A stretch of 64,000 nt of DNA, from positions 496,001 through 560,000 of the forward strand of contig AP026123.1 of NCBI GenBank assembly GCA_030295235.1, read 5' to 3'. The notes under the pieces are model-generated. The model saw nothing but the letters and a program-made list of their open reading frames with translations. It ran no database searches and was not told the origin of the DNA. The translations under genes were made by a program, and so were the position numbers. This DNA is from Fistulifera solaris. Its lineage: Eukaryota; Bacillariophyta; Bacillariophyceae; Naviculales; Stauroneidaceae. This document shows, piece after piece, positions 4,105 to 20,522 of this stretch (its first letter is position 1; each line of letters starts with the position of its first letter).

Positions 4105-6774
4105 TTATAGACGCGGCTCTTTTGGGGGGTGAAAGTGAAACTCTTCATTAGAAGCGCTGCTAGAGCTCTTTCGCTCTTCATAGCCTGTAACGACTCCTTT
4201 TCCGCTTGCGATACACTGAGCTCGGTAGTCTAGAACACCTGATTTCCAATTTCCTTCGTGAAGGTACCTCAAATAATTGTCCACGAGCTCCGAACCTGCC
4301 TTGATGTCATATAAGGTCTTGTCGCCTGCTGTTATAATCCTCATGTTGTTGCGGTCAATGAAGGGGTTGTAAACATGAGTTTCGGTGCCATAGTTTTCCA
4401 ACTCAGCTGGCATGCGCTCCAGGTGGGCAGTCATTTCGGTTGTAATCAATGGTTCCCCCTCACCCATCACGCCAGTTCCATTGCAACCGTGGTTGATGAA
4501 AGTCAGTATTCCCGTATCGACCAAATAGCCAGCTTTTCCAAAATATTCAAAGGCAAAGCCATAACCAAATAAGTATGTGTAGAAGAGACTCGAGTAGTGC
4601 AGAAACTCTGACGAGTCCAAATAATCGATCATATCATTCACTATGGACGTTGTGCTGGGATAAAATAGGATATCGTAGACTGATTCGTCCGCGGCGATGA
4701 AAGTTCCTTTTGGCACATCCGTTTGAAAGAAGATACCCCGTCCGGCCCCAGGTATTCGACTGATTCCGACAGCAAACGAAGAAATGGGAGCATTGGGAAC
4801 CTCGGGGTCAAATCCGTGTCCTTCGTCGCACATGAATGGCTTCTGCGGTTGGTTGCAGAAATCATCGTCCACCGAACGTGACGGAAGTTGATAGGCCATC
4901 ATAGTCGCTTCATCAAACCAGTACATGATTGGAACTTCATTCAATGTAGTCCTGATGAGATTCCTTTGCATTCTGACATGCAATTCAGCAGCGCTGGTAA
5001 ACCAAAGTGCCCTTGTTTCAATATTATTGAAACAAGCAATGAACGATAGACGATCTAAGTGAATAAATTCCTCATAGCGATGAATGGCTTCGAAACCAAC
5101 ACCGGCTAAGATGTCAAAGATGGTGTGTGCGTTGCTACTTCCCAAATCATCATGAGGGACAACGAGAACCCCGTTTGCCGACAACATATCCGATATACTG
5201 TCAAATATGCTTTCGGTATCTTCTGGCAAGCTCCAGAGAGAGTTACTAGAAAGAAACGGATTGGCAGATAAGTTACATGATAGAAGTGCAGTGAAAAAGC
5301 TTACAACATGACACAAAAATCATTTCTGCAATCCTCACCTTTTCTCGAAAATAATGACGTCAAAGAGATCGTCCGGAGTTGTGTCGCTATCGTCATCATC
5401 GTCGCCTAATAGCCATTCCAAAGCTGTCTCATCTGAAATCAATTCGACTCGTGCATCATCGTAGCAATACGGGGCGACACCTTCCAAAGTACTGCAGTCG
5501 CTATGCTGAGTATAGAGCTTCTTGTTCACCTGAAGGGTCTCGTCATCAGTTCCGACAATGACGACCTTTTCCACCGTCTTATGCTTCAGGACTTCGCGTA
5601 ATGTGGCTCCAGTCCCCTTTCCGATGATCGCGACACTTTTAGGAGCATCGTGGGAGAACATTATGGGGTGAACGAGCGCTTCGAAGTAAATTTGATCGTA
5701 GTTCTGTTGTCGAACATCGTCCTTGACCACTGATCGAGAAGCTGACGCCGGTTTAAAGTGGACACCGTCAGTGTCGGATGAAACCTCAACGCTGCCAATA
5801 CTGTTGGTGTCACCTGACATCGATGAACTCGATGGCGAGTACGCCATCCAGGTGAGTTTGCTTGTGTTTCTTTGTTTGAGTGACCAGAGCAACGAAGGCT
5901 TATTCGAGGTCATTGAAGCACCAAACACCTCGCTTGCTAGCGGCACAATCGAGCTCCATGGATCACTACGGTTGCACAAAACGTTCATTGACAAAACTCC
6001 CAATTTTGGCCATGTATACAAGGATATGGTTTCCGATCCAGCATATCCCATGCATCTCACGCCTTCATTATATATAGCTCGGTGACATTCGTACATGAAT
6101 GCGTCGAAGATTCCCAACTTTTGACGAACGTTAAGAACCCAGACTCAACAGCTTTCTCGGAATCAAGAAAGACAGTATCAAGATCTTGCAAATCAACCAG
6201 AACTTGTTGCGACCCTGAAGCAAGTTGTTTTGCATTCTTCGTAGAAATTTTCTTCTTTATGTCTTCACTCGAATTTTTTCGACCGCATCACCATCGTCGA
6301 GTTCGCTTAAATAGGTATTCCACTTGATGATCCGAAGATCAGAGTTAGAGGAATCGGAGAACTTTGAGGGAATGAAGTAAGTCTTGAAAGCTTCACGGAC
6401 TGCAATCGGCAAATGCTCGTGATAAGTGGACACCAAAGACGTCGAAAAGTACCCCACCGTGAAAGTAAGCAGGCACGGGCCTAATGCCGAAGCAATGAGA
6501 AGGTATAAAGAAAGGTTCATTTCACCACATTAACTCCTCACAACCGTTGTATCAGCGTTGAAAACTTACTTGCCTTTTTACGCAGGTTCTCATTTCGCGA
6601 AAGGCTTGCGTCGTAATTTCTCACCTTCAAACCTCCACAATCCACAATCATCCGTTGCGTATCCGAAACACCGAACGGAAGCATAGAGAACAAAAGAACA
6701 AAAGGGAGCGGAGTACACTTTAGAAGAGTCTTAAAACTACTTAGGGTCAGAAATGTGTCGCAACACTCCACCAT
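4105..6774 (-). CDS. SpeD-like / aminopropyltransferase-like / SET-domain fusion (copy A, SET intact)
   Basis: A predicted 829-aa membrane-anchored multidomain protein. ATG is at 6774; hydrophobic segments lie near the N-terminus. A SpeD (AdoMet decarboxylase)-like domain covers about 155-260 and is recognised by its LVDLQDLD start and SLYTWPKLG core; in an ungapped alignment the pyruvoyl Ser is Glu and the catalytic His is Tyr. The spermidine-synthase-like Rossmann domain (about 280-510) has GKGTGATLREVLKHK but lacks the LDGVxQ loop, the acidic EID (it has GTD) and the catalytic DxxDP (it has EKSN). The SET domain (about 600-790) keeps GAGRG, NHGC and GSELVDNY. GT-AG introns are inferred at 6481-6569 (89 bp) and 5246-5338 (93 bp). 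Two frame breaks lie in homopolymers (6274-6279, 6119-6122). Such fusions have been linked to long-chain polyamines of diatom silica. By its residues this copy is a candidate methyltransferase with a dead aminopropyltransferase. Confidence 0.8.
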
Positions 6775-6955
6775 AGAGAATTATGTGTCACATTCTGTTA
6801 AATACGAAACGAGCAATAGTATAAAACGGCTTTCAACGGACATTTTTGAAATAATAATTGTCACGTTTGAGAGTCTCTCTAGAATATTCATTCGAAAGGA
6901 TGATGCAGGATGCATTAATAAAAATGATGATGATTCATTGTAATTGGAACTGGAA

Positions 6956-9292
6956 TTAGTCATCTTTATCTGAAGGCTCAAGATCATCGTATAAGCGAAC
7001 GGAGAGAAGTAGCGTTGCTCCGCTGGTAACGGCAAAGCAAACGAACGTTCGATTGAGCAGGTGTTCCACCCCTCCTTCCCAAAGAGAGATAACAAGACGT
7101 CGCCCACGGCCCTTCCCGCGGTTCCCGCTTCTGTAGCCAGTAAACCCACGTTAAAGATACCTTGGCTCCATCGTTTTGGAATTGTCTTTGACAGTAAACT
7201 CATGTTCGGACCTTCCAGTGCATTCGAACTTACGAACATGACAAACGTCCCGACAACATACTGCAAAACCGTGTACTGGGCTGAATACTTGATCACGCCA
7301 ACACAACCCAAGAACATGCAAAGCTGCATGAGTATAATTAGCTCTCGATCATCATATCGTCGCGCCAAAAGGGAAACTACCAAATTTGCTGGTAGCATTG
7401 ACAAGCCCAAAGAAGCAAGATAGACGCCGCTGATGCTGCTGTTCCAGTCAAAGTAATACTCCGTCAATGTCGCCGACGAACTCAAAACGGCTTCAAGAAC
7501 AAGTTTGAGAACAAAGTAAATCAAGAAGGTAGTCATGACGGGAATATTGTTCCATATTGGAGCTTCATCTTCGAAATTGGAAGCAACTCCTTTGGATTGG
7601 TCCCTCGACTGAATCAAAGGAGCCTCCTCGTTGTTCGTGCCGACATCCTTTTTGTGGTAGAAATGCTCCTCTTGGAAGGGTCTCGGAACCACACGATCAA
7701 GGCAATTAGATATACTCCCCACACAATCATCATGACCCAGCCTGGAGCATTTTCGACTTGCCAAAATCGACTATCAGAGTCGTCAGGGCTCACTGCATTC
7801 AAAATGGAGGCGATCAAAGGACCAGCAGCCATTCCTAGTGCTCCAGCTGTAACAAAGGCGGCCGATGCTGCGGTGCGTTCTTTTCGAGAGAAGCGGTCAG
7901 CAATATAGCGTCGGTTAATCGATCGGGCGCTTCCAAAACCATTCATCAGACGCCCAATCATCACGATGTGAATGGAGTCACAGGGCAATCCGGCAGCGTA
8001 AAAGATGTTACCGACGAAGCTGCACGAGCTAGCAAAGATCAAAGCATGTTTGTAGGAGTGATTAGTCCACCATGAGAACAAGATAGTCGAAACAAGGGCG
8101 GCGACTGGCGTCATGCCAATAATCAGTGAAGCCATGGAAGGATCTCCGCCCAACTTTCGCGCGTAGCTACCGGACGTGGGCGCCACAATGTAGTAATTGG
8201 TCATATACAAAAACGTAGATAGAAGATTGAGAAAGTCCGACACGGGCGTAGCTGTCAAGTCTTCGTCCTCTTCTTCTTGCTCTAATACTTGTGGGTATCC
8301 GTCCATCAGCAACGTATTTGCCAGCATACCAACAAAACTGCTTGATTCCTCTAGTCTATTTCGAGCTGCTTGAATACGAAGCAAGATAAGCTCGTTTGAT
8401 GTTCGCTTACGTACATGACTGGGATCCCACAGGAATGTGCGCTGCATTACACCTATCGAACTAGAACTCAGCGCAGTTCCGTGGGAGTCCGGTAATTTCG
8501 ACGAACACGCTGGCGTCCAGGAAAGGCGCGGAGCTTTTTTTGTTGGTGGGCGCGGAATACTATGCGAGTCCGAAACGATGTTAGCCAGTAACGTAGGATC
8601 GGAACTCAAGCGCTGGTGTTGAGGCACTTTACGAACTGTTTGCGGGACGCTCATCAATAGCATATCTGCTGTCTGTTGTCGATTCCATGCTAATTCGAGA
8701 AAGCCTCCCTCAAGGATTGTTGTCAAAGCACCCAAGGTATGATCTTGTACTAGCAGTGGCTCTACTAGACGACTTCCGCGTAATCGAACCCCGCCACTAC
8801 GATTCAGAAAAAATGCCTTCGACAGTTTGACGGACATGCATTTGTCGTGTTTCTTTAGGATCTTTCGAATTCCCGTCACATTCAAATCAAGAAATTGCAC
8901 CAGCCGCAATATTTTCTCTCCTGCCTGTTGATAGCCAGCATAAATTTCATTGAATTCGTCTTCCGTGGTCGCAGTATGTGCTCTGTGCCGGCATGTCAAC
9001 AACTCTGTCGCAATGCGGCCTTGTTCTTGTACAACAAAAGAAGCATTTTCTCTAGTTGAACGTGAAAGACGCTTAAGAATTCCGCTGTTACAGGATGATG
9101 CTTCATTGAGGATGTGAAAGGCAGGCTACTAGTCAGGGAATAGTCTGCATGTGAATCGCTTTCCGCGTGATGCGAGTAAAGAGAGTCGTCGCGGCTCGAT
9201 TTTTCGAGGACATCTTTCAATTGCTCGTAGTTCAAGTAATAAGAAACCCACGGGCCGTACTGCTGATCCAGCAGCTTCTTACCGAACTTCAT
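6956..9292 (-). CDS. SPX-MFS phosphate transporter (vacuolar type)
   Basis: Predicted to move phosphate across the vacuolar membrane, gated by inositol pyrophosphates through its SPX domain. ATG at 9292 opens the SPX signature MKFGKKL...WVSYYLNYEQLK. The phosphate-binding lysine cluster KILKKHDK is near residue 150. A Ser-rich linker leads into an MFS domain with about 11-12 membrane spans, including RLMNGFGSARSINRRYIAD, a typical SPX-MFS motif, and NIPVMTTFLIYFVLK. Three missing bases split the gene: near 9003, in the CCC run at 7678-7680, and in the CCCC run at 7069-7072 (+ strand). Restoring them gives 779 aa ending LEPSDKDD. It lies on the same strand as the polyamine fusion gene, whose start is 181 bp beyond its stop. 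The family assignment is firm; the vacuolar location is inferred from plant and yeast relatives. Confidence 0.88.
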
Positions 9293-9658
9293 CGTCAGAT
9301 CACTTACAGGACTAACAAAGCAATGACTAATTTTATAATGAATCTTTATTATTCGAAGAAAAGATGCATTTCAGTACTTGTAAAAATGAAAAAAAGCAGA
9401 AAGCAAGCTTTTGGATAACCTTACGAATAAGGTTACAAAAAGTACCAGGTATACATAACCTTATTGCATTTCATTCAATATTACCGCAGCAACGCAACGG
9501 ACAACGGACAAACCTCCGCCGATGCAAACGTCACAAAGCGACGAAAAATAAATAATGACAACAATGGACAATGGACAATGGACAATGGTCACAGAATCGT
9601 TACAGCGCTCGTCGTCGTTTTGTCGGCACATAATATTACAATTTCCCTCAAGACTATC
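9293..9658. other. Divergent intergenic region, SPX-MFS/CreA
   Basis: The shared upstream region of two divergent genes. It contains a short tandem repeat, four copies of the 7-mer ACAATGG at about 9560-9588, and an inverted repeat AACCTTAC/ATAAGGTT near 9417-9434. The open frame of the CreA gene extends upstream through this stretch, but the sequence does not look coding. Confidence 0.4.
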
Positions 9659-10375
9659 ATGATGCTATCGACTTCATCGGTTCTCGTTGTTTCGCTTCTC
9701 ATTGGGGCCGTGCAGTCCTTGACGCTTCCTTTCCCTGATCTTCGACCGACTGCTAACAAAGTCGGAACAACACTGAAGGAAACGAAGGTGCATCCCTTCC
9801 GAGTCAACGCGCGTAATTATGTCGCAGCAGCCGCTCTCTGCACGACTGTTCTAGCAGCACCGCTGGCCCCGGTGCAGGCGGCGGAATCGCAAGTGATTGG
9901 TCAGATCACGGGGTCCGGTCTTGTATTCAAAGACACGCTTCAAGTCGAATCCTTTGAAGATCCCAAAGTTCGTGGTGTCACACTTTATATCAGCAACTTT
10001 CAAAGACCCATCAATGAGCGTCTTTCGTCGGCCAAAAACTTCTTTTCGGATCCGTCGTCGGCGGCCGTAGCTTGTGCGCGGACCGGACAAACGGTGATTG
10101 TCGCGGATAACATCAATACAACTCCCGCCGGTGAAGAAGTATTCAAAGAGTCAAAAAGTCTTCTTTTCAAATCTTTGAAGGTACAAAGAATCTTCGACAT
10201 GGAACACAACACTGTCATTTACGTTTCATTCAATACACGAATCGACAAGAACGACGACGACAATAAATCGAGATTCCAAAACTCATTGTGTGCGGTAAAT
10301 CTGGATAATTACGGAGTGGAACCAACAATTGTGGGTTCAAAGGAAGCATCACTACCAGCTACACTTGTACCATAG
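9659..10375 (+). CDS. CreA-family protein, probably thylakoid lumen
   Basis: A 238-aa protein starting at tandem ATGs (9659/9662). The N-terminus is a signal peptide (MMLSTSSVLVVSLLIGAVQS), then a plastid transit-like stretch, then a second hydrophobic segment with a lumenal cleavage site (APVQA-AES). That layout suits delivery to the thylakoid lumen of a complex plastid. The mature part matches the CreA family of bacteria and plastids: IGQITGSGLVFKDTLQVESFEDPKVRGVTLYIS, then SDPSSAAVACARTG and EEVFKESKSLLFKSLKVQRIFD. The biochemical function of CreA proteins is not established. The gene is intact with no intron seen. It sits between the SPX-MFS transporter and the second polyamine fusion gene, with no evident functional link. 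Confidence 0.85.
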   Translation: MMLSTSSVLVVSLLIGAVQSLTLPFPDLRPTANKVGTTLKETKVHPFRVNARNYVAAAALCTTVLAAPLAPVQAAESQVIGQITGSGLVFKDTLQVESFEDPKVRGVTLYISNFQRPINERLSSAKNFFSDPSSAAVACARTGQTVIVADNINTTPAGEEVFKESKSLLFKSLKVQRIFDMEHNTVIYVSFNTRIDKNDDDNKSRFQNSLCAVNLDNYGVEPTIVGSKEASLPATLVP

Positions 10376-11673
10376 ATTCCAAGTCGCTTCCAAGGTCAAC
10401 AAAAGCTTTTACGAGTATACTGCAAATGAATTGGTATTATTCGCTCATTACTTTACATGCAGTACATTTTAGATTGAGTTGAATGTTATTCCGGAATAGG
10501 AAGTCGTTTAACGAGTTAGCAAAGAGAACTCATGACGATTTCGAAAGCCGAATTTTTGTTTAGTCTTTAGACTTATTGACAACGCCTAGATGCCTTTCAG
10601 TCCCGGAACTCATCAATCAGAAATGTTTTCTGATGTACTGCATTTTCAACCCACTTCCACTTGTCCACAAAGAAGATCGATCGAAGATTCTTTAAGAAAA
10701 AGTCTTCTGAGGTGAAAGGAAAGAAAGAGGAATGTCGCAATGTTTGGTAAGTGCGACAAACACGGGCACCCCGCGTCCGCGTGTGGGAAGGGTAAGTACG
10801 AAAAGAAGCTCCCCGCAAGGTCTAGAGACGCTGGAGGCGGCTATAGCTATTAGACTACAAGTACAAGGTCGATGTTTATTGCTCAACATAAGGACCACCG
10901 TATTTACTATAGTACAAAGTGTGTAGTCTATCCTATCCACGACTGCAATCCAGTCATGAACCAATTTTCTTTCGAGTTTAAAAACAAATACTGGTAAAGA
11001 ATAATCCGTTCCTTCACCAAATTTTCTCGTGTTCCATTTGTCCTTGATGCAATCCTAAGCAGCTTTTGCATTACAAGTCTTGATATTTGTACGTCGAAAA
11101 GCCTTGTGAACTGCGAAAACGTTGTTTGCCGTATTGTACTGTGGACTATGGAATATGGACCGAAGTGTGTTCCGTATTTCGTCACGACTGCACTTCAATC
11201 ATGAATCAATATTCCTTTGACGACAATGCTGCCTACAATTCGTTTAGCAAAGATTTCTTAAGCTTCATCTGCCGTTTCTGCCATGAAATAATGGTCTTTA
11301 GCAGCGTTGGCATTACACGTCATTGCAATATTTTTTCACGTCGAAGAGCCGTGCGAAAACGTCTATAACGTCGACGTTAGGTGTATAGTACAGTAGTAGC
11401 GATAGTTACTTGTCAAGACTTAGAGATGGGGGCAGTTTCGCGCCTGCTTTCAGTCCCTTTGTGATCGGTCACGCGTCACGCCACAACACATAACTTCATT
11501 TTTTCGATGTTTGAGCTTTGACTTTTGCATAATAATGAATGAGGCACGTGCGCCTATCAAAGTTATCACCTTCGTCGTTTTCGATCGTCGACGAGACAGC
11601 TTTACGACGATGGATACGAACTTAGAGCGCCTGCAAATGGCAATCGGCAAGATAACCGAAAGACTTTTGTGTC
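10376..11673. repeat. Intergenic region with three degenerate family-1 satellite monomers
   Basis: From about 10,860 to 11,430 three diverged ~230-bp monomers can be aligned to one another. ACTAT blocks fall near 10,911, 11,143 and 11,380. CGACTGCAATCCAGTCATG is near 10,940 and CGACTGCACTTCAATCATG near 11,185. The phrase ACGTCGAAAAGC/ACGTCGAAGAGC is near 11,090 and 11,340. No supported gene is seen. A plus-strand frame (11,511-11,726) just upstream of the next gene could be a missed N-terminal extension. Confidence 0.6.
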
Positions 11674-13985
11674 ATGTTACAAAGCAAAGCGAAACAGACG
11701 GGCAACATCAGCAGGAACGATGCTGAGGGCCAAAACCATGTGCTGCTCTCGCTGCGGTTCCTAATTTTTTCCTTTTTATCTGTGGTTATTGTCTCATTCA
11801 TTACCGGGAGGCACTGTCAACTGCTTATTCTTAGTGCCTTGAAAGGACGAGTTGATTCGATTGGTTACGACACATCAAATTCTCGTTTAGCTGTGAACCG
11901 CACCGACAAGCCAAAAGACGAATCAGACCATGACGAGAATTTTAACGACAATGAGAACACAGATACGGAAATGAATGAAGATATTATACCAGGTCGCCAA
12001 TTGCTAGTTGATATTGAGAACGTTGACGCTTTGTTTCTCGATTCAAAGCACCTATTACGACGTGCTATCATCAGTTATCTCGACGAACGAAAGATCAATG
12101 ATATTCTTTTCCAGCCAGAGTGTGCTTCGACGAGCAACGGACTTTTTTGTTATGCGATGTTGAGGAACGGGGTCGCATAACCCTTGACACGTGGCCATTG
12201 AGAGGTACTATTTCAATTACCATCATGATCAACGACTCCGACGAAACGCTTATATCTGATCTACAAATTATTGAGCACGTATTTGGTATCCCGAGAAAAA
12301 GAAGCCGCTTTGGACCGCAAGTACAAGAGCCCTTTCTGCGATGGGCAACAAAGACTAGGGGATTCTTCGAGAAATTGCAAAATGTCGAAGAAGTTGATAT
12401 TAAATCATACATTACAAGTCCCTTGGACTGGCCTTATAAGAAGAGAGTAGCGTCGATCGAAACGAAATACCAAACGATTGAGATCTACGATATGCTCCAC
12501 CCCCGCCTAGGGTCGATGGAGACGTACACAAACATGAAGAACAACCCGAACTCGTATGAAGCGATTAACCACCACCTCTTCCGCCCAGATCGACTGGTCT
12601 ATCTTGACGGGGTCCTGCAGTCTCGCTTTTTCGGGGAAGCTGCTTACCATGAAGTCCTCGTCCATCCCGCACTACTAGCGCATCCCAATCCAAGGCGAGT
12701 CGCTATCATAGGAGGCGGTGAAGGTGCCACTATGCGAGAGGTTCTGAAGCACAAAACTATAGAAACCGTCACAATGATTGATATTGACGAAGAAATGGTT
12801 GAATTTTCGCGACAATATCTTCCTGAATGGAGCGATTGCAGCTTTCTCGAAGGAGATGATGGTTCTTGCTATGATGATCCGCGGTCAGAATTTTTCGGTT
12901 TAGATGCAGTTACATGGTTTTTGGATCGTTATGGTGGTGGTATTGGAGTGAGAGATTTAAAGGAAAAACAGTATGATGTCATTATCATGGACGCTCTGTA
13001 AGTGGACGACGATTTATCATGAACCGCAAACAGATGTCTTCTCACTTTGTGCTGTTGTCTCTTTTATTGGAAAAGTGATCCCGACTCCAAAACTCCTTTT
13101 TCGGATGTTCTCTACAACAACAAAGATTTTGTCAAAGCTTTGAACAATGCACTGACCGAAGATGGTATTTTGATTCTACAGACGGGTTGTGCCGCCGACG
13201 GAAAGGAATATCCAGCAGAGTATCACGAAGAGACAAGTCATGAGATTACTTTGAAGCGAAACTTGGAAGCGGAAGGATTTGCACGCATTTATGAATACGA
13301 AGACATTCACGGAGGGTTTTTGGATGTTTGGACGTTTATGATCGCGTTCAAATCTTTCCGGTCAGAGAGACGCTGGTTTGCGAATCAAGCGCAAATCGAT
13401 ATGGAACTCCACAGTCGTGCCATGTCAACTAAATCGGGCGGATTCCCCTTTCAATTCTTTGACGGGGCAACGATGGTATCGCTGCAGTTGCTGTCACGCG
13501 TAAGCGCTGATTTCAAGTGTAAGATGGATGCTCATCACAGTTACTGCGAAGGCAAGCATGGATTCGATCCTGATCGCAACCACGTTGAAAGTTTTTCGGC
13601 GACGGGTTCAGACGCGTCCGTCATCCCTGCAGGATCATACATTGGGTTGGATGAAGCAGTGAACGCGATTGAATTTCGGGAGTCGGCGACGAAGATGATT
13701 CAACAGCTCTCAAGAATCGACTCAAAACTCCAAACCGTGGAGACTTTCATTAGTCACTTTGTCGTACCGATGTGTATTGAAGATTATGCCGGCATGATGG
13801 ACCCTTTTCACCCTGAAATTGCTCTTTTTGTGAAGAGTACGATGTCAGAGGGTTTGTTCTGTGACAACGAGTTTCTTGTTTGGAACGAAAGAGACCTCCG
13901 TACTCGTCGAGCTGTGGTCCTCTACAGCCGAGACAGCGAGTTGTATTTGAAACCCAGCCGTTGCGTTATTTCTTCTGAAATCTAG
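11674..13985 (+). CDS. SpeD-like / aminopropyltransferase fusion with degenerate SET tail (copy B)
   Basis: A predicted 744-aa paralogue of the protein at 4105-6774. ATG at 11674; a membrane segment lies at about residues 23-50, followed by an acidic linker. The SpeD-like domain (about 105-190) begins GRQLLVDIENVD and has the core RITLDTWPLRG; the pyruvoyl Ser aligns with Gly and the catalytic His with Asp. The aminopropyltransferase domain (about 270-510) looks complete: LDGVLQS, AYHEVLVHP, GGGEGATMREVLKHK, MIDID and the catalytic DALDP. The C-terminal part keeps the linker FDGATM...GHGFDP and an IPAG-YIGLDEA segment, but the GxGRG, NHxC and GEEL-type SET motifs are missing. One frame break is in the T6 run at 12143-12148. 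An intron at 12998-13075 (78 bp) is at the same codon and phase as in copy A. Role inferred: aminopropyl transfer for spermidine or long-chain polyamines. Confidence 0.82.
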
Positions 13986-14421: not shown

Positions 14422-16832
14422 ATGATCACTCGACGACTGCGAATCGTTTTGAGCGGGCTTACCGTCATCCCGGTCCTCCGTGCTTGGCCGAGCGACATCG
14501 TTCCGGCGCATTTAGGCAAAAAGACAGTGTTACTCACCGGGGGCGCGGGCTTTGTGGGGAGCCATGTAGCCGAATTGCTCCTAGATCGAGGCGATGATGT
14601 TGTTATTGTCGATGAAATGAATGACTACTATGACACGGCAATCAAAGAGTCGAATTTGCGCACTCTAATTGAGAAATATGGCGACCAGCGACTGAAAATA
14701 TATCGTGACGATCTATGCAATGCAACCATGTTGGCTGAGCTTTTTGAGACGGAAAAGCCAGAGTGGCTAGTTCACCTTGCTGCTAGAGCCGGTGTAAGAT
14801 CCTCCATTGAAGACCCCTTTCTTTATGTTCACTCGAATGTGAGAGCGACGGTAAATTTGCTACAATTCAGTCAAAAGCACGGCGTACGGAATTTCGTCTT
14901 CGCTAGCTCTTCTTCGGTTTATGGGGGATCAAAGTCCACTTTCTTTGACGAATCAGAAAATGTTAATCGGCCGATCAGTCCTTACGCGGCTACGAAGAAA
15001 GCGGGGGAGTTTCTGCTATACACATATCATCACCTGTATGGGCTCAACACGACAGCGTTGCGATTCTTTACCGTTTACGGTCCTCGCGGACGTCCCGATA
15101 TGGCTCCTTTTAAGTTCATTGACAGCGTCAGCAAAGGCGAAGCGATTCAACAGTTCGGGGACGGATCGAGTAGTCGCGATTACACGTATGTTGAAGATAT
15201 CGCAAAGGGGTTCTTTTAGCCCTCGACCGTCCTTATCCTTACGAAATCTTCAACCTTGGCAAAGGTGACGGAACGAAACTTTCGGAATTTATCACGTTGG
15301 TGGAGAAGTACGTGGGGAAGAAAGCAAACATTGAATACCTTCCCGATCAACCCGGTGACGTTCCTTTCACATGTGCGAATGTCACAAAGGCGCAATCGTA
15401 CTTGGGCTATCAACCAAGTGTCACCTTTGAGGAGGGCATTCGGCGTACAGCTGAATGGTACAAGAGTGTCTTTCCGGATACTCTATCGTCCAAGCAGCTT
15501 CGCGGGCCTGCAGCGAGACCGAGGCGTACTCGTCGACTAAGCGTACCTCGCACTGCTTTTTCGACAAGAAAGTTGATCGGCTCTACTGAGACTTTACCGT
15601 GGAACGATACTCCACTGGTTGAACCACATACTGGCAAGAAGACAGTCTTGCTTACCGGCGGCGCTGGTTTCATTGGAAGTCACGTTGCCGAGCAACTTCT
15701 AGCTCGAGGGGATGATGTAATTATCGTCGATGAGGTGAACGATTACTACGATTTGTCAATCAAAGAATCCAATTTACAAATGATTATGGGCAAGTACGGC
15801 ACGAGCAGAGTCCAGATATATCGCGCAGATATTTGCGACAAGGAGATAATGCAGCACATTTTCGAGACGCATCGTCCGGAATGGTTAGTCCACCTTGCGG
15901 CCAGAGCCGGAGTCCGACCCTCTATACAAGACCCGTTACTCTATGTTCATTCGAATGTTGAAGGGACGTTGCGGCTTCTGGATCTCAGCCGCTTGTATGG
16001 CGTTAAGAACTTTGTTTTTGCTAGCTCTTCTTCTGTATATGGTGGTTCGACATCGACGTACTTCAGCGAAGACGAGGTCACTGACAATCCAATCTCTCCG
16101 TATGCAGCAACCAAGATTTCAAGTGAGCTCATGGCGTACACATATCATCATTTATATGGCTTGAACATAACTGGACTTCGCTTCTTTACTGTCTTCGGTC
16201 CAAGAGGAAGACCAGATATGGCCCCGTTCACCTTCATTGACAGAATTAGTCGCGGCAAAACAATACAACAGTTCGGCGATGGAACGAGTAGTCGCGATTA
16301 CACGTATGTCGACGATATTGCCAACGGGGTCCTTCGTGCCTTGGATCGCCCATACCCGTATCAAATATTCAACCTTGGAAAAGGCAGTGGTACAAGTCTG
16401 TCGGAATTTGTTCAGACGGTCGAAAAGTATGTCGGGAAGACAGCCAACATAGAAGTTCTCCCAGATCAACCTGGTGACGTTCCAAGAACGTGTGCTGACG
16501 TCCGAAAAGCGGAACATTTGCTCGGCTATAAATCCCAAGTATCTTTTGATGAAGGTATTCGACAGACGGTTGAATGGTATCAGCAAACATACCCTATCGG
16601 GAACGATACCGGATCATCACAGTCAGGTCTCTCGAGCTCGGCTGCCATCACCCATGTCCGTTCTGGCGCAGGATCATCTGGCAAAATGGAAACTCGGTTT
16701 TCCGTTGACGATTTCTTTCTTTCCGACTGGCCTTGCTCTTTGGCATACGTTCAGTGGGCCCTCTTGGTCGCTTTTCTGATTCGCCGCTTCTGGCATAAAA
16801 ACAAATTGAGCTTCAACAAACACGGCAAATAA
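14422..16832 (+). CDS. Double UDP-glucuronate 4-epimerase-like fusion with C-terminal membrane anchor
   Basis: Two complete NAD-dependent SDR sugar epimerases in one frame. Copy 1 (about residues 35-350) has GGAGFVGSHVAE, SSSSVYG and YAATK; copy 2 (about 405-720) has GGAGFIGSHVAE, SSSSVYG and YAATK. Both therefore keep the dinucleotide loop, the catalytic Ser region and the YxxxK pair. The closest family known to me is UDP-glucuronate 4-epimerase (GAE/CapI type), which makes UDP-galacturonate for cell-wall or matrix polysaccharides. Copy 1 ends early at a stop after a GGGG run (15207-15210); one more G continues the frame through an Arg-rich linker into copy 2, giving 803 aa. The N-terminus is signal-like, and one hydrophobic helix near the C-terminus is followed by basic residues, suggesting a Golgi-membrane enzyme. 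Alternatively two adjacent genes exist, but no stop or start separates the copies once the G is restored. Confidence 0.82.
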
Positions 16833-18167
16833 GCGATTCCGCGCATTGCTTTTCGATGGTAGGAAACTACTTCCCAGTGCATGGTGGCATCGACATGATA
16901 TCGTTACTTCGATTTTAGGCCCTTGACAACGGTAGCTTCTCGACCTTGACAATTCAAGCTGTAATGAATACTGTACGACTTTGTTGAACTCCAGGCTAAT
17001 TTATGTATCCATGTAAAACACATTAATTGATGTATTAACTTTTTTACCGAGGCGATGCGAGTAAAACGATGAATTGTAGCAGGAAGCAATGAAACGCCAC
17101 CCTACCAGTATGTCGAGTGTTAATTATGTAGCGACCCTATCGAGGGTATATTATCAATCACTCAAAACTTTGTTTACGGATGAATTTATTTGTTCCAGAC
17201 ATAAGAACCACAAATTGTAGACTTTCCTAGCATCAATTCTTCATTTCCACACGTATGACACATAAACAATAATACAGTCTGCGAAGAGTTGTTCTAAATG
17301 AGATAAGATTCCTTTAACGCCTTGTTGAGTGTTTGCTGCTGGAATAATTAGCGTTACCTGGTATCGCCTTCATCAAAAATCACACCATGTAGGTCATAAT
17401 ATGACACAACTAAATTTCATTCCCGGATATGTCGACGACACTTCTTATGGATTAAAACACACCCTAGCGGGAAATTGCTTCTTAGTACTCGGTTTTATAG
17501 AGCAACAAGCATTTGATTTTTGTTTTGCGTTCATGTAGATCATGTTGTTAGCTGTTACTACGTTGTTTGCCTTGTACGGGCGAAAGGACACGACTAATCT
17601 TTGATTCGCAGTCCCGGAAATGTCGTCGCATCATTTTCAACTACGAACCGGCACTCATATTCTTATACACGAAAACAGGTAGATTACAGAGTTACGAATT
17701 CTTAGTACCGTTCCTTGCCCGGTTGCGATATCATGAAAAGTCATCTATTTGGCTTATTACACGCTAATGGAGATTCAAATTATCTATGACACAAAAGTAG
17801 TCTCTGTAACGTTTACGTTTACTGCATCCGCTCCGTCACCTCCGCGCTGCGTTAGCAACGAAAAGATCGATGGGCTCGAGTACGAGTTAATTCGCATTTG
17901 CAGCCTGGCTCTTTGACTATCGCGCAAGTGGCTATCTGCTGTTGTCAAGACGTGAAAATCCAGAGAGGAACGTCTGCACCTTCTCGTATCGGCCTAGATC
18001 GCATCGAAAGCGCCACGCAAAGTTTATGCTTATGCATTTCCCTATGGAACGAGCACGAACATCTCCTCCCCTCGCGACGAGGTGATTGTTTTGAACGAAA
18101 GCCTAATCTTCGTCCAGGAAGTTTCTCATTCTCCGAGCCACGAAGAAGACCTCAATCACATCAACCG
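16833..18167. other. Intergenic region, epimerase/Tudor-like gene
   Basis: About 1.3 kb without a supported gene. The last ~270 bp are open in the frame of the following gene (from TTG 17898) and may be its 5' UTR or an unrecognised N-terminal part. Confidence 0.35.
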
Positions 18168-20522
18168 ATGCGACGGCGGCCGCCGTCATCGTCAACTGTT
18201 TACGCTAGCAATCAGTACAACGGCAAAATTGACTATACTCGAAATACAATTTCGAACGATCGGCCGCAGCCGCCATCTGCCATGCATTCCTTCGACAAAA
18301 GAGATAGCAGAAGTGTAAGAGAATACGCTTCTTCCTCATCTACGTCGTCGGCAAGGGTGGCACCTCAAGCGACAGAAAATCGAGATCGATACGTTCATCC
18401 CATGCTGGTCGGTCGTTTTATTCCTGCCTCCGTCGTTCAACAAGAAAAGATGGAAAGCTTCACGCCACAATGTACACCGGATCTATCTGAGATTTACTCT
18501 CACTCCAGTAGCGGTAGTAGTCAGAAGCTTACGGAAGAAGGTTTGTTAGCTTCGAACACATCTATCGGTGATTTTGAAACGGTCAAGCAAACACCGAGGT
18601 CAATAGATTGCTTCACGAAAGAGCAAGATAACCCTCCATCAACGACAAAGCAGAAGCCTCTGTGCGAAGAGGTTACCTGTTCCGCAAAGACTCCTCTGTC
18701 GCCTACTGCGAAAGAAGAAACGTTAAATTCACTTCTCGAAGAAGCGACGACGATGGGTGTCAAGTCTGGACCGGAGGCGGCAGAGAACTCTGAGAACCTG
18801 CTTGTACATTCAGAAAAGACTTCAGTGATTCTAAATAACGAAGCTGTCGACAAGAATTATGATTGCAAAACAAAGATTAAATCTCATGCGAATTGCAACA
18901 TTCAGCCACCATCCAAGAAGCGGAAAATGATTGCTCCCGATGACGAATGCAGAGATCTTTCGGACGTGCGAGTCGGGTGCAGAGTTGCCGTGTTTTGGGA
19001 TGGCGAGAACGCTTATTTTGAAGGCACGGTGACGCGTGAACGCAGAAATCACAAGCGCCGGTACTTCATAGAGTATGATGACGGTGACCGGGAGTGGATT
19101 GATTTTACAAAACACAAATTTTACTTGGTGGAACAACAGCCAAACGGCACACAAGAACTACATCTCTCCAAGCGCAAGCGCAAACTTAGTTGTGACGTTT
19201 CCCCTCCGTTTGATGCTGAAATGAAGGGCCATAACTCAAAGCCGATTCCAGGATCGATTGATTGCCCCAGTATTCGTACTGAGGATCCAAAAGACATACA
19301 AGCTGGTAATGATTGGGTGCACACCTATAACAACCCCAAAGTGAAGGCAGAACTCAATAGCTCCGATGACTCCGAGACCGACGAAGACGAAATTATGGAA
19401 TGGGCGGTGAAAATGTTTGGCATCAGACCACCGATCGCTCGTCCGAAGATTCAGTCTGAAGATGCAGCACGAAGTGTACTGCAACTTCATTACCCTCCTT
19501 CAAATCAGGACGACCGTGTTTATGGTGGTATTTCGGAGGCTGTTAAGCGTAGAAGAAGCTGTGTAGTTTCTACCACGAACGTTCAGGGAGTGAAAACGCC
19601 AGAACCGCAATTTGTGCATCGAGATCGACCAAAGCCTACGCATCGCGTCAAGATTAGAAAATCGGCGTTGCTTGCGAATCCAGTTGTTGAGCCCGATAAG
19701 GACGAAGACGTTGAGGCAAAGCGTAAGAAAGAGTTGGCTAGAGCTTTGACGGCGGAGGAAATCAGAATGATATTGGGTGAAGACGAGTGTGTTGGTCCAT
19801 GCTCCACAAACTGGGTCCGCCGTTCCGTTAGACAGCCCTCAAAGCACGCCTTGAACTCTCCGAGGGTAAAAGACCTGATAGAAAAGTTAAAAAGCAATGA
19901 TCCAGACATGGTGGTTTTGAAGATGAAGAAATACGTTAATGATCCGAACACACCCTGTCTAGTGATCGATGCTGTCCTTGCTGCGCTGGAAGAAAATACG
20001 AATTGCGAAGCGCTCTATATTCAGGTAAGTCGATGAAGTCGAAACTGATTTAGTTTGATGCTCCTCAGTATCCTAACGTTGACCGTTCCTCTTCAGAATT
20101 TTAACGAAGGCATGCGAGACGAACAGATGATGAGCCTACTTCAAGTACTCCAGCGTTCCTCTTGTAAGATCTGGTGCTTGAATATTGGGGAGACGTACAA
20201 AGTCAAGCAGAAAACGTGGAAGAAATTCGCGATCGGCTTGAAGAAAACAAAGATCACCCACATGTACGCTTCGGAGCATGTGATATCTACCGAGCTAAAA
20301 GATCAGATTCGGTCGACAATTCGAGATAACCGGTCGAAGCACTCTATGCATTGCGACCCCAGCAATCTTGATACCATTATCAAGTGCACTCACTGCTGGT
20401 GGAACCCAGTCAATACAAAAAGTTTGCGACCGTACTTGAAGAAGAGGGGCTACGACCGCATTTTGGGGGACAGTGAATTCCAGGGCTTGCCCGGTTCAAC
20501 TTCGGGGGCGGCTCTATCGTAG
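18168..20522 (+). CDS. Tudor-like domain protein with C-terminal diatom-type LRR-like region
   Basis: First in-frame ATG at 18168, giving 760 aa. An intron at 20025-20096 (72 bp; GTAAGT, CTTCAG) joins ...ALYIQ to NFNEG in phase 0. The N-terminal third is polar and Ser-rich. A Tudor/agenet-like module lies at about 265-310 (VGCRVAVFWDGENAYFEGT...RRYFIEYDDGDREWIDF), with KKRKM-type basic motifs nearby. Such modules read methylated histone tails or bind DNA. The C-terminal ~160 residues (CEALYIQNFNEGMRDEQ...WCLNIGETY...THMYASEHV...WWNP) resemble leucine-rich-repeat-like segments that I associate with stramenopile proteins; I cannot name a function for them. A nuclear chromatin role is inferred. 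The true start is uncertain because the frame is open upstream and another ATG (18026) lies in a different frame. Confidence 0.65.

Follow-up and report, generated by a model that had tools for sequence, protein, structure and literature searches.

Aminopropyltransferases (APTs) require decarboxylated S-adenosylmethionine (SAM), and SET domains methylate amines using SAM. Some of the diatom proteins in which AdoMetDC is fused to an APT reportedly carry signal peptides and a dead AdoMetDC. This fusion family is known from Michael 2011 (FEBS Lett 585:2627; cited in PMC6356823, PMC12029483, PMC3820600 and PMC12803844); according to the citing passages of PMC12029483 and PMC3820600, AdoMetDC and APT lie in one protein, sometimes together with a domain of the histone-methyltransferase type. 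Here we analysed a 64,000-nucleotide stretch of the Fistulifera solaris genome (the window), which holds two divergently oriented genes of this arrangement, copy A and copy B, ~5 kb apart. Unlike the fusions of Michael 2011 as these sources cite them, copy A combines a dead APT with a live SET domain. A limited search of open-licence literature found no description of such a member, although Michael 2011 may contain one; the dead-APT/live-SET class is a new form within the known diatom fusion family. We consider it likely that copy A and copy B are old members of a membrane-anchored diatom fusion family whose catalytic domains decay singly and repeatedly, and that the two hold distinct roles in one pathway and do not form an exclusive obligate pair.

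Partial parallels exist outside the diatoms. In animal spermine synthase, as in copy B, a non-catalytic AdoMetDC-derived domain lies ahead of an active-looking APT, and in the human enzyme this dead AdoMetDC domain is needed for the dimer (relevant passage of PMC12803844); copy B differs from the animal enzyme by its N-terminal hydrophobic anchor, its linker and its SET remnant, and the solved chains nearest in sequence to its APT are those of Thermus SpeE. In the trypanosome pairs of AdoMetDC with its prozyme and of deoxyhypusine synthase, a dead paralogue is likewise kept beside an active one (as outlined in PMC5201418 and PMC3663545); there, however, the partners share a domain that is active in just one of them, and the heteromer has been demonstrated, whereas for copy A and copy B it is a hypothesis. 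Within diatoms, a role on wall proteins and long-chain polyamines (LCPAs) has been proposed for diatom-specific SET methyltransferases (Nemoto et al. 2020, as referred to in PMC11151724); LCPAs are usually N-methylated propylamine chains (stated in PMC3820600).

In Nitzschia inconspicua, 32 APT fusions have been counted (PMC12803844, in the section concerned). The functions of the diatom fusion genes are described as still to be characterised in a passage of PMC6356823 and are named as an area for study in one of PMC12803844, and the enzymology of LCPA building and methylation for diatom silica templating is still lacking. Copy A, in which the methyltransferase site alone is left, and copy B, in which the aminopropyltransferase site alone is left, together offer simple reagents for assigning each step.

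Active sites of copy A and copy B

The two genes and their domains lie at the following positions of the window; dN/dS denotes the ratio of nonsynonymous to synonymous substitution rates.

4105..6520, minus strand: copy A gene; exon 1 6520-5339, intron 5338-5246, exon 2 5245-4105; intact homoeologue A2 (L009) on the homoeologous contig C4
5917..6211 (approximate), minus strand: pseudo-AdoMetDC of copy A, without the ESH processing site (PF02675 on A2, motif table)
5015..5700 (approximate, intron-interrupted), minus strand: pseudo-APT of copy A (PF01564 match on A2, motif table, dN/dS 0.26)
4240..4790 (approximate), minus strand: intact SET of copy A, with GAGRG, NHGC and GSELVDNY
6115..6280, minus strand: two frame breaks of copy A, each of one base at a run of A; A2 is open across the same stretch
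11674..13985, plus strand: copy B gene; exon 1 11674-12997, intron 12998-13075, exon 2 13076-13985
12490..13350 (approximate), plus strand: intact APT of copy B, with YLDGVLQS, IGGGEG, MIDID and DALDP; PF01564 at 119.7 bits
13590..13985, plus strand: SET remnant of copy B, with loss of GxG, NHxC and ELxxNY and an end without confident fold in the model

From N to C terminus, copy A comprises a hydrophobic anchor, a dead AdoMetDC, a dead APT, a linker and an intact SET; copy B comprises a hydrophobic anchor, a dead AdoMetDC, an intact APT, a linker and a SET remnant. The ATG of copy A is at 6520 and its stop at 4105, which corrects an earlier start placed at 6774. Both proteins belong to one three-domain fusion family, and the motif table confirms that each keeps a different activity site.

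Copy A has the features of a SET-domain methyltransferase, namely the GxG, NHxC and ELxxNY motifs, all retained as first read and intact in A2 also, and the SET fold of its predicted model; by fold comparison, the model of exon 2 corresponds to half an APT followed by SET. Among the four loci of the genome with AdoMetDC-APT-SET order (A, B, X and Y), copy A alone has the canonical NHGC and DNY. Its APT sites read VKDDVRQQN, IGKGTG, GTDD and FEKSNS, compared to YLDGVxQS, IGGGEG, E/DID and DALDP in relatives, and are degenerate at the same positions in A2. The sequence-only reading had described LDGVxQ, the acidic EID and DxxDP as lost, which holds for these motifs apart from one Q that is kept in alignment with the Q of LDGVxQ; despite this residue, the script rule finds 0/4 APT motifs (DGxxQ, GGGEG, E/DID, DxxDP). 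On A2, Pfam returns in order PF02675 (20.7 bits, cut-off 25), PF01564 (4.5e-15) and a sub-threshold PF00856 (14 bits, E 0.069).

Copy B presents the reverse, as had been noted from its letters: 4/4 APT motifs are retained, with DALDP spanning the intron, and all three SET motifs are gone. Among the three domain families, PF01564 is its sole Pfam match (1.4e-34), and SET gives no match at E<=1; the AdoMetDC-like and SET-remnant regions were recognised by alignment to relatives. With PF01564 matched on both A2 and copy B, homology of the two is not due to chance. The solved chains closest to the copy B APT by sequence are those of Thermus thermophilus SpeE (1uir, 3anx). In the predicted model, the final 51 residues have a pLDDT < 50; the 50 structural matches listed for this model are APTs or other methyltransferases with no SET entry among them, which does not by itself exclude a SET-like fold. 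Two copy B homologues from other sources, P0105 and P0106 (exon 1 only), keep the three exon-1 APT motifs and the DAL of the fourth; in these homologues, as in copy B, the AdoMetDC is dead. Copy B and P0106 are 84% identical in the APT and 66% in the pseudo-AdoMetDC.

The linker FD-ATM...GHGFDP, reported earlier for both copies, is present in each, and one phase-2 intron occupies an identical site in A and B, inside the DxxDP motif. The AdoMetDC is dead in both, a point absent from the sequence-only reading: ESH is replaced, the site reading GSETISLYTWP and GRITLDTWP in the two copies and LLESHVSFHTWP in relatives. The ESH processing site is present in X and Y. The N-terminal anchors of A and B were called from hydropathy windows only, the best 19-residue window starting at residue 3-5 in A (1.8-1.9) and at residue 23 in B (2.4), with X and Y similar.

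Recurrent loss of single sites in the fusion family

Three protein searches gave 106 proteins, of which 105 (P0103 was merged into the copy B model) were aligned with six models of our own in a 111-protein motif table. Site patterns were counted for 77 rows of at least 650 amino acids, with P0007 and P0015 left out and with A and X each entered twice as homoeologues; these rows were gathered by searching with A2 and B and are hence not a random sample. The whole-protein search with A2 scored just the 8000 candidates with the most common words, and a lack of closer relatives there is no evidence. For SET, N[HY]xC or an incomplete set of motifs was enough for a score of alive; a partial APT set was scored as lost (P0009, P0014, P0021), with the exception of five GAGEG proteins scored as alive.

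All three sites are kept in 31/77 rows, SET only is lost in 24/77, and both AdoMetDC and SET are lost in 15/77. AdoMetDC and APT are lost in 4/77 rows, namely A, A2, P0009 (where the APT motifs are partly changed) and P0011; three other loss patterns occur in one row each, and rows lacking all sites number 0/77. On a quick tree of the counted rows, the minimum number of state changes is 14 for SET, 9 for AdoMetDC and 3 for APT. Judged by motifs, single-domain loss is recurrent in the diatom fusion family. A rule that APT loss requires a kept SET was considered and set aside: 5/6 APT-losing rows keep SET, a number too small for a test, and in the one deviating row, P0021, an exon may be mispredicted.

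Both A-like and B-like proteins are found in other sources. P0096 and P0098 of Nitzschia inconspicua show the B-like pattern; in P0011-P0013 the SET is intact and the APT badly decayed; P0007 is without AdoMetDC or APT motifs, keeps NHAC and ..VDY and matches no Pfam family at E<=0.01. Copy A and P0011-P0013 form one clade in the best full-length tree with weak support (77/92) and are separated in the linker+SET tree (p-AU 0.067, approximately unbiased (AU) test), so that their APT may have been lost once or twice.

Fusions with all or most sites persist alongside these. P0010 of Mayamaea pseudoterrestris keeps all three, and P0019 of Seminavis robusta keeps AdoMetDC, APT and most of SET. F. 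solaris itself has three fusion loci besides A and B, one of which, the following locus, has all three domains.

C5:179999-182092 and C6:138203-140288 (L013, L014): locus X, a complete AdoMetDC-APT-SET fusion in which ESH and the APT motifs are present

The first APT motif reads MDHIMQS in X and LGNVMQS in P0010, both scored as alive by QS. In the SET of X, NYGC and ..GNF take the place of NHGC and ..DNY; the two homoeologues and the published protein agree in this, and the domain is alive under the lenient rule only.

Selection on copy A and proposed roles

We compared copy A with A2 by plain Nei-Gojobori counting on the two sequences. Differences by codon position are 75/773, 46/771 and 144/773, dS is 0.31 and overall dN/dS is 0.26. 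By domain, dN/dS is 0.67 for the N-terminus, 0.43 for AdoMetDC, 0.37 for the linker, 0.26 for the APT and 0.08 for SET. By these ratios, SET is the most strongly kept part of copy A, and the dead APT is less strictly kept, yet not neutral.

In the reading that we favour, the catalytic domains of the fusion family would decay one by one, often with preservation of the fold, and dead domains would serve oligomerisation or substrate holding. Copy A would be a dedicated N-methyltransferase of polyamines or of polyamine-modified silaffin lysines, its pseudo-APT serving for binding or dimerisation. Copy B would be an aminopropyltransferase that adds aminopropyl units, with its pseudo-AdoMetDC as a dimerisation module in the manner of animal spermine synthase, and its decarboxylated SAM could be supplied within the cell by X and Y, the fusions that carry ESH. 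A place of both copies in LCPA and silica chemistry, as proposed at first sight of the sequence, appears likely; the family as a whole has been proposed to make LCPAs for silica and to methylate them. More tentatively, the silica-polyamine pathway may comprise a paralogous multidomain set in which catalysis is parcelled out and inactive domains have docking or regulatory functions; copy A could here represent an unrecognised class of SET methyltransferases in which a dead APT holds the LCPA or silaffin chain as it grows; P0011-P0013 and P0007, from other organisms that are probably diatoms, would be further members.

Several points weigh against the favoured reading. The motif calls treat motif loss as activity loss, deep nodes are poorly supported, and both A and B sit on long branches. 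Furthermore, the pseudo-APT of copy A is under purifying selection (0.26), which implies some role that the motif reading leaves unexplained.

This last observation would fit an account in which the dead domains of A (and B) are pseudoenzyme activators that form mixed multimers with X, Y and B under prozyme-like allosteric regulation, copy A being both methyltransferase and activator. APTs and spermine synthase are in general oligomers, and the trypanosome prozyme offers a precedent for such regulation (relevant passages of PMC5201418 and PMC3663545). We nevertheless regard this account as unlikely: the dead AdoMetDC and the N-terminus of copy A are far less constrained (0.43 and 0.67) than its dead APT, and in P0011-P0013 the APT has decayed further.

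Relationship between copy A and copy B

The sequence-only reading suggested that copy A and copy B may be daughters of one local duplication of a three-domain enzyme that then split its jobs, the two acting only as a heteromer in which B adds aminopropyl groups and A methylates the product. This claim of common birth and obligate partnership is unsupported by the domain identities, the linker+SET tree, the state of C4 and the recurrent loss in the family, and we consider it improbable. Its best remaining argument is proximity: the divergently oriented copies lie 5 kb apart, and their linkage is seen on C4 also and is therefore older than the separation of the two subgenomes. The motifs that the two copies retain complement each other, the full-length tree does not reject a clade of A and B (p-AU 0.217), and trypanosome AdoMetDC with its dead paralogue prozyme provides a precedent (as outlined in PMC5201418).

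Against these points, copy A is closest to copy B in no domain. Its SET is 48% identical to that of P0008, 47% to P0009 and 45% to P0010, versus 24% to copy B; the APT of copy B is 57% identical to that of X and 32% to that of A. The SET remnant of B is about equidistant from all relatives (best P0017 with 27.8%, window A with 25.2%), and there is no domain in which A and B are mutual best match. The clade of A and B is absent from the best trees and is weakly rejected by linker+SET in the AU test (p-AU 0.039). A quick 84-row tree groups B with P0009 and P0029 (support 85), long branches that are possibly joined falsely. With A and B being long branches, the tree results are weak evidence against a local duplication and do not refute it.

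The family survey bears on the same question. Recurrent loss of SET only (24/77) and of AdoMetDC with SET (15/77) is a further point against the pair reading, and all three domains are still carried by X. Orthologues keeping APT and SET sites in one protein had been named as evidence against the split, and this evidence is largely supplied by P0010, a close relative of A, and by X of the same genome, which have some motif letters changed and need not be strict orthologues of A.

The assembly comprises 51.7 Mb in 61 contigs, and PF01564 is found at 13 places, paired on C1/C2, C3/C4, C5/C6 and C11/C12, which we read as six homoeologous pairs and B alone. The sister subgenome retains A2, under constraint, whereas its B is deleted and decayed.

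11657..13490 (corresponding positions of the window), plus strand: interval missing from C4; start and APT of copy B deleted, frameshifted 3' stub left (L010 from 997)

That the C4 subgenome has lost B and its A2 remains under constraint speaks against an obligate pair; one B copy persists in the cell, so this loss weakens the claim without refuting it. The C4 subgenome offers a natural example in which A has no linked B. Homoeologous pairs have been described for F. solaris, an allopolyploid, with 9007 pairs versus 2441 single genes (figures given in PMC5935921), so that genes with one homoeologue only are common in this organism. The obligate pair is the less likely reading, and recurrent loss of single sites in one family is the more interesting result.

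As a separate observation, P0105 and copy B are 86% identical, about equal to the distance between A and A2 (84-85%). From this distance, the C4 parent may have a relative in which copy B persists.

Frame breaks and assembly

Single-base frame breaks interrupt both window genes at homopolymer runs, two in A and one in B. The frames are open elsewhere, for copy A in A2 on C4 and for exon 1 of copy B in the public protein P0103; no independent public sequence of the window's own copy A was found. Locus X on C6 is also frame-broken in the same assembly while its published F. solaris protein, P0015, is open, and the breaks in A and B are therefore best read as assembly error. That one or both window genes are pseudogenes is highly improbable: the three frame breaks, the lost homoeologue of B and the near-equal change of the C4 stub from B at the three codon positions (25/162, 25/161 and 36/161) would fit decay, but this codon pattern is as expected of decay or of an unconstrained SET remnant of B itself, frames are intact in A2 and P0103, the X break set against open P0015 points to assembly error, and the SET of copy A has a dN/dS of 0.08.

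Neighbouring genes

Between copy A and copy B, and downstream of copy B, the window contains the following genes.

6781-9002, minus strand: MFS transporter match and weak SPX match, in two overlapping frames
14422-16832, plus strand: two adjacent NAD-dependent epimerase genes, GDP-mannose dehydratase/epimerase-like in Pfam
17898-20036, plus strand: open reading frame whose Tudor-like match, PF18359, scores 27.9 bits and so lies under the cut-off of 31

The overlapping frames at 6781-9002 are consistent with an assembly frame break. The first epimerase gene is cut by a frame break or an intron between ~15219 and ~15297.

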